Positions 14,430 through 24,275 of a DNA stretch of 64,000 nt are shown here, piece by piece (the stretch's first letter is position 1; every line of letters begins with the position of its first letter). The notes beneath the pieces are model-generated. The model ran no database searches, had not been told where the DNA came from, and was given only the letters and a program-made list of their open reading frames with translations. Location: assembly GCF_028550415.1 (NCBI RefSeq), contig NZ_JAQQKX010000008.1:62001-126000 (forward strand), in the 5' to 3' direction. This DNA is from Asticcacaulis aquaticus. GTDB lineage: Bacteria > Pseudomonadota > Alphaproteobacteria > Caulobacterales > Caulobacteraceae. The position numbers and the translations under genes were made by a program.

Positions 14430-14473
14430 GCATCCGCGGTACGTTTCGGGTTAAGGGGCGAGCCCCTTAACCT
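14430..14473. repeat. Stop-codon-straddling hairpin repeat, family E (copy 1)
   Basis: CCGCGGTACGTT followed by the hairpin GGTTAAGGGGC-ga-GCCCCTTAACC. The hairpin contains the stop codon of the minus-strand gene ending at 14467. A relative at 16044-16080 overlaps the ccrM stop codon in the same way. Confidence 0.6.
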
Positions 14474-15879
14474 TCCTTATTGGAGCCATTACCCGCGATC
14501 GTGCACTTTTCCGGCACGCCGGGATTGGTGGCGGCGATGTGGCACGGGACGGCCGGGTTCAGGGCGGTGCGGGCCTTGTTGAGGACCGCGATATAGCCGC
14601 GCTTGTTGACGCAGGCGATTTCCATCACCACCTGACCGTTGTTTTCGAAGGCGTAGCGGGCCTCGCCGATAACGCAGTCGGCCTTGATCGACTTATGGCC
14701 GACGGTCAGCTTTTGCAGGTTAGCCTTGAGCTGGTCCTTGGTGACGTAGGTGCAATCGGTCTTTTGCGTGGCGGCGGCGAAGCAGTCGAAGGTGTCGAGC
14801 TTGCCGGTCGTTCCGGCGTCGGGGATCAGGGCGATCAGGCCGTTGGGGGCTTCGGCGCACTTGAATTCGGCTAGATCACGCTTGGAGTCGTTGTCGTGAC
14901 CGATGCGGCGGAAGTCCTCGATGGTGCAGGTGACTCCACCGGCGGTCAGGGCGGCGGCATAGGCGTCCTTGTACTTGGCCTTGGCTTCTTCAGCCTTGGC
15001 CTTGCCGGCGGCAGCCAGGGCGGCATTGTCGGTGAACTTGCAGCCGCCGATCGCCGCGGCCTTGTCGCAGCCGACGGCGCCCTTGAATTCACCAGCGGTG
15101 TCGGTAACGAGCACGAAGCCCGCCTTGTCCTTACAGCCGACTTCGTAATATTCGGAATCCTTGGTCGCGCCGCCGAAACGGGCATTGGTCAGCACGCAGT
15201 CGGGTGCGTTTTTCTTGAGCAGGGCCGCCAGGGTCTGGGGGGCGACTTCCGGGGTGGTCAGTTCGCACTTCAGAGCGGTTTCGGCGGTTTTCAGACAGTT
15301 GTAGAAGGCGACGGTCTTATCCGTGGCCTTATGGGTCGGGACAACGAAGATGCCACCGGCGGTATTTTTACAGCCGATCTCATAAAGCTCGGTATTGGCC
15401 TTCTGGTCGGCGCGGATGAAGCGGGCACCGGAAAGCGCGCAGCTGGGGATCTTGGACTTCGCCGTGTCGCCCAGCCAGTAGTGAGCCGCGCGATTGCCTT
15501 TCAGCTTGCAGGTCGGGCTGCCGGGGGCGGTCTTGGCAACTGCCGCGGCTTCGAGGCAGCCTTGCGGATTGCCGAACGGCGCGTTCTTGGCCTTGTACAG
15601 GATATAGCCGCGCTGGTCCTTGCAGACGACTTCGAAGATTTCGATGGCGGCCTTCTTGCCATCGACGGTGGCGTCGGCGACCGTCGGCTTCGAGGCTTCG
15701 GTGACTTCGCAGGGCAGGCCGTATTGTTCGACCAGCTTGCTGACGGCCTTGACGTTTTCGGCGGCGGCTTCGGCGGCCAGCATGGCCTTGCGGTCCTGCG
15801 CCTGAGCGGGCGAAAGGATCGCCGTTCCGGCAAAGAGCGTAAGGACCAGCGCCGCTAGGCGCAGGATGGGCATTTTCAT
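14467..15879 (-). CDS. Secreted five-repeat cysteine protein (paralogue 1)
   Basis: A 470-residue protein with a clear Sec signal (MKMPILRLAALVLTLFAGTAILSPAQAQ). The mature part is five imperfect repeats of about 70-90 residues. Each holds four cysteines in the order C-(22-28)-C-(20-26)-C-(8-15)-C with a YEIGC-like core (FEVVCKDQRGYI, YEIGCKNTAGGI, YEVGCKDKAGFV, AEFKCAEAPNGL, MEIACVNKRGYI), giving 20 cysteines. A paralogue of identical layout lies at 22890-24275. I recognise no named domain. Even cysteine counts suggest disulfide-bonded periplasmic or surface modules. It is followed by repeat E and a terminator, with its own promoter region upstream (15880-15990). Confidence 0.85.
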   Translation of the reverse strand: MKMPILRLAALVLTLFAGTAILSPAQAQDRKAMLAAEAAAENVKAVSKLVEQYGLPCEVTEASKPTVADATVDGKKAAIEIFEVVCKDQRGYILYKAKNAPFGNPQGCLEAAAVAKTAPGSPTCKLKGNRAAHYWLGDTAKSKIPSCALSGARFIRADQKANTELYEIGCKNTAGGIFVVPTHKATDKTVAFYNCLKTAETALKCELTTPEVAPQTLAALLKKNAPDCVLTNARFGGATKDSEYYEVGCKDKAGFVLVTDTAGEFKGAVGCDKAAAIGGCKFTDNAALAAAGKAKAEEAKAKYKDAYAAALTAGGVTCTIEDFRRIGHDNDSKRDLAEFKCAEAPNGLIALIPDAGTTGKLDTFDCFAAATQKTDCTYVTKDQLKANLQKLTVGHKSIKADCVIGEARYAFENNGQVVMEIACVNKRGYIAVLNKARTALNPAVPCHIAATNPGVPEKCTIAGNGSNKEG

Positions 15880-15988
15880 GGACGTTCCCCAGATTTATAG
15901 GTGATATTTTGGGGACAGTTTAAACACGCGGTTAGGCCTGAAATCAAGCGCCATCGTTTGGGGGTACGACTTTCGTCGCATGGAACAA

Positions 15989-16010
15989 GGCCCGCTGTTT
16001 CCACCGGGCC
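15989..16010 (-). terminator. Possible ccrM terminator
   Basis: The stem GGCCCG/CGGGCC with a 10-nt loop is followed on the minus strand by TTGTT. Only a weak T tract, so low confidence. Confidence 0.4.
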
Positions 16011-16043
16011 TCATTCGGTTATCATTTTGGACGATGCCGCCTG

Positions 16044-16080
16044 CCGCGGTACGTTAGGGTTCTAGGGCCGCGCCCTAGTG
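16044..16080. repeat. Stop-codon-straddling hairpin repeat, family E (copy 2)
   Basis: CCGCGGTACGTT then the hairpin CTAGGGC-cgc-GCCCTAG, which contains the ccrM stop codon (TAG on the minus strand). Same leader as the copy at 14430. Confidence 0.6.
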
Positions 16081-22713: not shown

Positions 22714-22742
22714 ACTTCCATCCTTGGCCGATTAGGGCGTCG

Positions 22743-22780
22743 GCGTCGCTAGCAGGTACAAGCGTACCTGCGTCGCTAGC
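22743..22780. repeat. Palindrome flanked by direct repeats
   Basis: GCGTCGCTAGC occurs twice (22743-22753 and 22770-22780) around the hairpin GCAGGTAC-aagc-GTACCTGC. It lies between pyrC and the minus-strand terminator at 22834. A plainer palindrome, CGTACTTAAGTACG, occurs at 33752-33765. Confidence 0.6.
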
Positions 22781-22833
22781 CTCCTGCTACTCGACTCAAG
22801 GCTGAAAGTTTAGGATCCGGAGCGAATTTCTAA

Positions 22834-22870
22834 ATAAAAAAAGCCCGCCGGTGGTCCGGCGGGCTTTTTC
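22834..22870 (-). terminator. Terminator of the 22890-24275 gene
   Basis: The stem AGCCCGCCGG/CCGGCGGGCT with a 4-nt loop is followed on the minus strand by a run of seven T. Plus-strand T run is also present, so it may serve pyrC too. Confidence 0.88.
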
Positions 22871-22889
22871 AGTTCCGGTCGATCCGACC

Positions 22890-24275
22890 TTAGTCGTTGG
22901 TCGCACCGGCGGGCGGGACGTAGGTGCCGTTGCCGGGGATTTCGCACTGGATCGGGTATTTGCGGTTCTTGGCGATGGTACAAGCGACGACGTCATCGAA
23001 GCCCGCACGGGACTTGGATACCGCGCCGACATAGCCGCGTTTGTTGGTGCAGGCGATTTCGACGAGGACGCTGTCGGCGTCGCCGCGGCCCAGATAGTTG
23101 ACCTGCTGAACGTCGCAGTCCTTCTTGGCCCCCTTGATCAGGACGTCCATCTGCTGATCCAGCGCGCTCTTCGGCACGTAGCCGCAGGTCTGGCGGCGGG
23201 CGACCATGGTGAAGCAGTCCATCACCTCGGCCTTGGCGGCCGAGCCCGCGGGCGGCAGGAAAACGGCGAGGCCCCACTTCTGTTCCGGGCACTTGTATTC
23301 GACCAGTTCGCGCTTGAGACCGGCGTTTTCGACGCCGAGCACGGTGTAGTCGCTGACCGTGCAGGGCAGACCGGTGACTTTCAGACGGTTCGCATAGGCC
23401 TCACGGGCACCGGCCTGAGCCTGCGACGCGTCGGTGTACTGGCAGCCGCCGATGGCCTTGGCCTGGCTGCAGTCGAAGGTTGCCTGATAGACGAGCGCTG
23501 GCGAGGTCTGGACGATGAAGCCGGGCTGACCGGCACAGCCGATTTCGTAATAGTCGGCGTTCTTGTCGGTATCGCGGGCCAGCCAGCGGGCCTTTTCGAC
23601 AACGCAGCTGGCCTTGGCCTGCTTGGCGATCGGCTGAAGGCGCTGAGTGGCCTGTTCGGCCGTGGTGTAGCTACAGGCTGAATTGCCCTTGGCAATCAGG
23701 CAGTTGATGAAGTTCGGCGCATTGGTGTTCGGGGCATAGGGGACGTCGATCAATCCGCCCGCCGAACCCTGGCAGCCGTATTCGTAACGGTTGGTCTTCT
23801 GCTCGGCGATCTGACCCAGCCAGCGGGCCTTCTCGACGGTACAGGTGGCATCGTACGGCTTCACCAGCGGCGTCAGCCAGGCATAGTGTTCCTTGTTGCC
23901 GGGCAGGACGCATTTGATCTGCTTGGTATTGGCGGCGTTCTGCGAAAAGGCCTGCGTACAGTTACGCTGCTCGACCACACCCGAGGACGGGTTCTTGTCG
24001 AGGATGTAGCCGCCACCCGCCTTGCAGGTCACTTCGACGACCTGAATCTTGACGGTCTTGCCATCGGCGGTCTTGGTGGTCGACTCGCCGATATAGTAGG
24101 CGTCGGCCGGATCGCAGGGGACGCCCGCGCCCTTGATCATGGCCGGGGCATCGGCAATGCCCTTGGCGCGCTGCTTTTCATTGAGCTTGGGGGCCTCCTG
24201 GGCCATCGCCGCGCCCGCGCTCAGGCTGAAGGCGGCCAGAAAGGCCACGCCCTTGAAGAAAGAAGAAAGAGACAT
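22890..24275 (-). CDS. Secreted five-repeat cysteine protein (paralogue 2)
   Basis: 461 residues with a Sec signal (cleavage probably after SAGAAMAQ). The mature protein has the same architecture as the gene at 14467-15879: five repeats, each with four cysteines and a core like VEVTCKAGGGYI, YEYGCQGSAGGL, YEIGCAGQPGFI, VEYKCPEQKWGL, VEIACTNKRGYV. Units two and three also share the string EKARWL. Equivalent units in the two proteins match each other better than neighbouring units within one protein, so the five-unit form predates the gene duplication. Function unknown; probably a disulfide-rich periplasmic or surface protein. Confidence 0.85.
   Translation of the reverse strand: MSLSSFFKGVAFLAAFSLSAGAAMAQEAPKLNEKQRAKGIADAPAMIKGAGVPCDPADAYYIGESTTKTADGKTVKIQVVEVTCKAGGGYILDKNPSSGVVEQRNCTQAFSQNAANTKQIKCVLPGNKEHYAWLTPLVKPYDATCTVEKARWLGQIAEQKTNRYEYGCQGSAGGLIDVPYAPNTNAPNFINCLIAKGNSACSYTTAEQATQRLQPIAKQAKASCVVEKARWLARDTDKNADYYEIGCAGQPGFIVQTSPALVYQATFDCSQAKAIGGCQYTDASQAQAGAREAYANRLKVTGLPCTVSDYTVLGVENAGLKRELVEYKCPEQKWGLAVFLPPAGSAAKAEVMDCFTMVARRQTCGYVPKSALDQQMDVLIKGAKKDCDVQQVNYLGRGDADSVLVEIACTNKRGYVGAVSKSRAGFDDVVACTIAKNRKYPIQCEIPGNGTYVPPAGATND

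Follow-up and report, generated by a model that had tools for sequence, protein, structure and literature searches.

Probably exported five-unit, 20-cysteine proteins of Asticcacaulis aquaticus belong to an unnamed protein family of Caulobacteraceae

What kind of proteins are encoded by two similar, cysteine-rich genes of Asticcacaulis aquaticus, and what might they do? Both lie in a 64,000-nucleotide stretch of contig NZ_JAQQKX010000008.1 (positions 62,001 to 126,000), here called the window, and an initial annotation of the sequence had proposed that they encode Sec-exported proteins, termed P1 and P2 below, each made of five copies of one four-cysteine unit. The two open reading frames (ORFs) are present as described, both on the minus strand and 470 and 461 amino acids long, and on sequence evidence both P1 and P2 have a Sec-type N-terminus and fall into an unnamed protein family of Caulobacteraceae. 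The genes and their leaders are as follows.

14467..15879, minus strand: P1 gene (470 amino acids), between ccrM and mutY; probably exported five-unit, 20-cysteine protein, the Asticcacaulis-specific duplicate
22890..24275, minus strand: P2 gene (461 amino acids); probably exported five-unit, 20-cysteine protein, the copy with orthologues across the family
15799..15879, minus strand: putative P1 signal peptide, approximately residues 1-27, read by eye; hydrophobic N-terminus
24198..24275, minus strand: putative P2 signal peptide, approximately residues 1-26, read by eye; hydrophobic N-terminus

The start codons (ATG) of P1 and P2 are preceded by GGGGAA and AAGGA, respectively. In pairwise alignment the proteins are 34% identical with their cysteines in register, and each contains exactly 20 cysteines with none in the leader, as had been counted originally; the first cysteine is residue 57 or 54. 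A hydrophobic N-terminus is found in all 33 rows of the family alignment (A2, also used as the family profile), with a cleavage-like end by eye, and no membrane-span-like stretch was seen past residue 30 in P1 or P2. The proposed Sec-type leaders are supported, and both proteins are probably exported.

Unit boundaries were set from 21 residues before the first cysteine of a unit (C1) to six residues after the fourth (C4).

15490..15774, minus strand: P1 unit 1, cysteine-based boundaries
15247..15504, minus strand: P1 unit 2, cysteine-based boundaries
15022..15261, minus strand: P1 unit 3, cysteine-based boundaries
14734..14991, minus strand: P1 unit 4; the preceding C4-to-C1 linker has 38 residues, against 27 in P2
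14485..14739, minus strand: P1 unit 5, cysteine-based boundaries
23892..24179, minus strand: P2 unit 1, cysteine-based boundaries
23655..23906, minus strand: P2 unit 2, cysteine-based boundaries
23424..23669, minus strand: P2 unit 3, the unit with a predicted structure (helix, four strands, short helix)
23166..23426, minus strand: P2 unit 4, cysteine-based boundaries
22926..23180, minus strand: P2 unit 5, cysteine-based boundaries

The unit spans about 80 residues and follows the pattern C-x(about 23)-C-x(about 22)-C-x(about 10)-C, with an E-x-x-C motif at the second cysteine. The glutamate of this motif (C2-3) is present in all 33 rows for every one of the five units, and a glycine follows the motif in 97% of 985 unit hits. 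All 33 aligned five-unit proteins have 20 cysteines, and 763 of 778 distinct unit hits have cysteine at all four positions; among the other 15, one is shifted at C1 and 14 lack at least C4 where aligned, in most cases as hits that end early, though not each was resolved. Conservation falls mostly on cysteine, glycine and glutamate, the invariant positions being the cysteines, the E-x-x-C glutamate, some glycines, R230 and N127, and the remaining rows share 23-61% identity with P2. Such invariance at this level of identity is more in keeping with a conserved framework whose surface changes than with an enzyme.

Homology of the five copies was examined by alignment and by profile comparison. When cysteines were held fixed and the remaining residues shuffled, four of six unit pairs aligned better than all 300 shuffles (z 3.4 to 11.8). 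The pairing of units 3 and 4 fell short, with 58 of 300 shuffles equally good in P2 and 101 of 300 in P1. The matter is settled by family profiles built from 33 relatives, since each of the five unit families matches every other one, with hhalign E-values from about 1e-12 to 1e-22 over the 10 pairs. Five units per protein are thus supported. Corresponding units had been held to be closer between the proteins than neighbouring units within one. By alignment score this is true of nine of the ten units, the exception being P2 unit 2, which scores 119 with P2 unit 3 and 99 with P1 unit 2. By percent identity without cysteines, the like-numbered partner comes first in no more than about half of the cases (P1 unit 1, for example, shares 36% with P1 unit 5 and 25% with P2 unit 1), because short, gappy alignments inflate identities elsewhere.

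In a maximum-likelihood tree of 43 rows, P1 (support 100/99) and P2 (86/93, not among the best-supported nodes) form sister clades within an Asticcacaulis clade supported at 100/100, and five-unit forms are spread across the family. Thus, duplication of the entire five-unit gene probably took place on the Asticcacaulis stem, with later loss of P1 in some members, in agreement with the earlier proposal of a five-unit ancestor duplicated whole. Two or more family matches were found in 15 of 25 genomes of the genus. Third, diverged copies also occur in the genus (G029:C5:208888-210264 and G104:C171:6718-8043).

Searches of P1 and P2 against Pfam, NCBIfam and PHROGs gave nothing significant (no Pfam family; one PHROG at an expectation value, E, of 0.063 for P1), and the same was true of all 33 A2 rows against Pfam and NCBIfam (best E 0.016). 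Sequence searches of the PDB gave a best E of 0.71 for P1 alone, and family-profile searches gave 0.53 or no match. The module is therefore without a described sequence family in the libraries searched, as had been suspected, and no study of this cysteine-module family was found in the literature searched.

The family is nearly confined to Caulobacteraceae. Presence was surveyed at family, order, class and phylum level in samples that overlap, so that the counts are not additive. With P2 as query, a match was found in 288 of 299 sampled Caulobacteraceae genomes, covering 22 of 22 genera, and the A2 profile recovered six of the 11 misses to give 294 of 299. Four of the five genomes without a match are at most 85% complete; the fifth, G157, is 99% complete and in 590 contigs. 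At order level the profile matched 49 of 239 genomes, all Caulobacteraceae; the 20 listed among the 190 without a match all belong to other families. It matched five of 385 genomes at class level, four of them Caulobacteraceae, and seven of 299 at phylum level, all Caulobacteraceae. The lone outsider, genome G819, encodes a three-unit protein (L103:206-1267) with, by eye, twelve cysteines in its units and E-x-x-C. The gene lies on an 11-kb contig with genes for LytB/IspH and a radical SAM/DUF3463 protein (PF02401, PF04055, PF11946); together with a squalene-cyclase-like frame, these genes resemble a hopanoid cluster. As four other genomes of that bacterial family gave no match, transfer or a mis-binned contig is possible. 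The restriction to Caulobacterales raised initially is thus to be narrowed to Caulobacteraceae plus one outlier. Near-universal presence in one bacterial family and near-absence outside it make the protein likely to be part of what renders the envelope of that family distinctive.

P2 had no match in phage and plasmid records at E up to 0.001, and for a single unit a phage search extended to E 10 yielded one irrelevant match. Caulobacter phage Sansa supplied the top viral fold match of the unit model (E 0.29, to a protein of 88 residues). This was considered a chance fold match, since the two 88-residue genes read in the phage record lack the cysteine pattern and the unit profile gave a best E of 0.64 over its six frames.

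Among 196 distinct family proteins from the collected loci, which are not a random sample, four have one unit, three have two, 80 have three and 109 have five; no four- or six-unit form was seen. Cysteines are in register, with E-x-x-C in every unit, in 106 of the 109 five-unit proteins (20 cysteines) and 78 of the 80 three-unit proteins (12 cysteines); not every one of the other five was resolved. In genus g3, which we take to be Brevundimonas, three-unit forms are typical; 120 of 121 g3 genomes have a match, and nine of the g3 matches listed span the five-unit profile. Single-unit proteins also occur in this genus: those of L115, L116 and L117 have exactly four cysteines and, by eye, a leader, and that of L092 has four cysteines within the unit. 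This series of one, two, three and five units, with four cysteines each, offers a clean natural system for the multiplication of disulfide modules. In two g3 genomes, G290 and G1193, three family genes lie close together (L148, L149), which suggests local expansion.

Spacing between units bears on how they are arranged. In the five-unit proteins in register, the distance from C4 to the next C1 is 23 residues between units 1 and 2 in 105 of 106, 23 between units 2 and 3 in 92, and 27 between units 3 and 4 in 98, the other eight having a P1-like 34 or 38. In three-unit proteins it is 23 between units 1 and 2 (77 of 78) and 24 between units 2 and 3 (68 of 78). Within unit 1 the loops are more variable (21-37 and 10-34). 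Linkers that flex should differ in length from protein to protein, and units joined by helices of set length are favoured for this reason. Two observations weigh against such an ordered array: the distance between units 4 and 5 is not constant (24 in 46 of 106, range 21-26), and some loops within units are equally fixed, such as that from C3 to C4 in unit 4 (10 residues in 101 of 106). Because the last junction varies, we put an ordered array joined by helices of mostly fixed length at about an even chance. The independence of the modules, as first proposed, holds in evolution, given the single-unit relatives; near-fixed spacing at three of four junctions suggests that they are not loose beads.

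Structure models were built on alignments of six and 30 rows. The model of a single unit (P2 unit 3) has an alpha-beta4-alpha arrangement with a mean predicted local distance difference test score (pLDDT) of 85.6 and a predicted template modelling score (pTM) of 0.75, and each unit is accordingly predicted to start with an alpha helix, continue into an antiparallel sheet of four strands and end in a short helix. For the full five-unit protein the pTM is 0.39. In a Foldseek search with the full model, beta-propellers headed the list (28 matches at E up to 0.001, the best at 4e-5), and five units closing into one five-fold ring or propeller-like body, one sheet per blade, could also explain why five is the commonest number, why four was never seen and why three of four linkers are near-fixed. 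However, the 50 matches listed have template modelling scores (TM-scores, by query length) of only 0.10-0.14 and root-mean-square deviations above 20 A, so that only single four-stranded sheets match. The likeness to propeller blades (WD40, LGI1 EPTP, PLL lectins) lies in repeated four-stranded sheets, whereas each unit here adds a helix of about 15 residues, and relatives with one, two or three units could not close alone. Given also the low full-model pTM, a closed ring is very unlikely.

Other known systems compared are PepSY-type domains (YpmB, 2gu3; UipA, 7ath), which like the predicted units have a helix followed by antiparallel strands; the YpmB match spans two units. The cystatin/monellin fold (stefin A, 1dvc; monellin, 5lc6) also appears among the comparisons. 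An alternative reading is that of a tandem inhibitor whose target would be a protease or another enzyme of the periplasm, with each unit or a few of the units acting as a cystatin-, PepSY- or Spi-like inhibitor domain. No inhibitor family was matched over cut-off, and the supporting matches all lie below trust level, where unrelated proteins score equally. The PepSY profile did not pass the Pfam cut-off for P1 or P2 and, when the 33 members were searched at E up to 1, was absent from the 15 families that any of them matched; cystatin was likewise missing from the matches of P1, P2 and the 33 members; and Spi (PF13734) stayed below cut-off, with two of 33 members matching (best E 0.053). The cystatin inhibitory-loop pattern, QxVxG, occurs in five of 33 rows and in neither P1 nor P2. 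An inhibitor is thus unlikely. Multi-domain disulfide-rich exported repeat proteins in general also consist of tandem small disulfide modules in variable number; the present family differs in having no sequence match in the libraries searched and in its near-confinement to Caulobacteraceae.

In the unit model C1, C2 and C3 lie, by strand position, at the same end of the sheet and C4 just past the short helix. The genome encodes DsbB (107.1 bits) as well as DsbA-like proteins, and two periplasmic disulfides per unit are then the plainest reading. Disulfide-bonded modules, as proposed at the outset, are strongly suggested by the four cysteines per unit in one-, two-, three- and five-unit proteins. 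Pairing could not be read from natural loss of cysteine pairs, as the 778 distinct unit hits gave no convincing pairwise loss. Four cysteines per unit might instead form a tetrathiolate site for Zn, Fe or Cu, giving five sites for periplasmic storage or sensing. The three cysteines at one sheet end, the invariance of all four and the nearby invariant glutamate would fit; prokaryotic metallothionein (PF02069) was matched below the Pfam cut-off by one of 33 members at chance level (E 0.52). Against a metal site stand the Sec-type leader, which would send the protein to where DsbA-like and DsbB proteins reside, the absence of CxxC from all 33 rows and a spacing of about 23/22/10 unlike that of known zinc ribbons; we consider it quite unlikely.

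Proximity to Dsb genes had also been cited, since two DsbA-like genes (PF13462) lie about 2 kb from P1. A DsbA-like gene also adjoins ccrM-mutY in L059, a locus of another genus without P1, and this neighbourhood loses its value as evidence for disulfides. The same locus counts against a thiol buffer, or a Dsb substrate or regulator, with redox-active rather than structural cysteines: the many cysteines and the nearby genes would suit it, but strict conservation of all four per unit fits structural bonds better, and such a role seems highly improbable. That these are exported disulfide modules we regard as very likely.

Taken together, P1 and P2 would reach the periplasm by export, and a DsbA/DsbB system there would close two disulfides inside each unit, while helices of mostly fixed length would join the units into an ordered array. 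As a non-catalytic protein of the periplasm, the array would offer multivalent binding or a scaffold to a partner shared by Caulobacteraceae, its alpha+beta4 module being used in a cystatin- or PepSY-like manner. The non-catalytic binding or scaffold role, taken by itself, is tentative, its chance falling slightly below one half, and the explanation as a whole is about evenly poised between right and wrong. More speculative, and rather doubtful, is a lineage-defining envelope protein of nearly every Caulobacteraceae member, in which disulfides staple an ordered array of five modules (three in most g3 genomes), with a function in periplasmic assembly or quality control that other bacteria lack or solve otherwise.

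The neighbourhood of the genes was compared in 34 main-copy loci of about 19 kb each. A dihydroorotase-like and/or enoyl-CoA hydratase gene of the window's kind occurs in 28 (both in 16), and neither in six (L048, L049, L057, L058, L081, L082); the P2 neighbourhood thus appears old but not kept everywhere. Outside Asticcacaulis, the family gene lies beside and on the opposite strand to a member of one gene cluster, c3, in 22 of 27 main-copy loci; it does not in three, and in two the family ORF was not retained by the script. The c3 member in L046 (7597-8799) is a metallo-beta-lactamase-fold protein (PF00753). Since no c3 gene lies next to P2 in Asticcacaulis loci, the window included, it was treated as chromosomal neighbourhood. 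P1 beside ccrM was found only in Asticcacaulis loci; in L059 and in L069, an Asticcacaulis locus, ccrM and mutY are direct neighbours without P1, in a comparison for which few further loci reach that far. The DsbA-like pair and ccrM were rejected as specific partners of P1 on locus comparison. One further feature lies downstream of P1.

14360..14383, minus strand: terminator-like hairpin, nine pairs (seven G-C) with a T-rich tail; a consensus match only, with five such sites found in the window and 3.2 expected

Caulobacteraceae include a leading model bacterium, and a match in all 22 sampled genera makes the family gene very probably present in Caulobacter too. Two loci (L046, L053) of genus g22, presumed to be Caulobacter, have the compact order heptosyltransferase, dihydroorotase, family gene; in five others (L044, L045, L047, L063, L074) the dihydroorotase gene is about 7 kb off or outside the stretch. 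Among the tags CCNA_00387-00395 and CC_0384-CC_0389, only CCNA_00388 and CCNA_00390 occur in the full texts searched, and a passage of PMC3973325 gives CCNA_00390 as an ADP-heptose-lipopolysaccharide (LPS) heptosyltransferase. If gene order is as in the two compact loci of seven, the Caulobacter orthologue would be CCNA_00392; this stays a guess because the other five g22 loci differ in order. If confirmed in the model bacterium, the orthologue would make the role testable with existing genetics.

Elsewhere in the window, two adjacent genes for DUF805 membrane proteins (18005-19406) lie between rnhB and ygfZ, and the number of DUF805 matches at this position differs among Asticcacaulis loci. 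In the g22 locus L046, an IS481-type transposase gene (16150-17088; PF13011, PF00665) lies between ccrM and rnhB.

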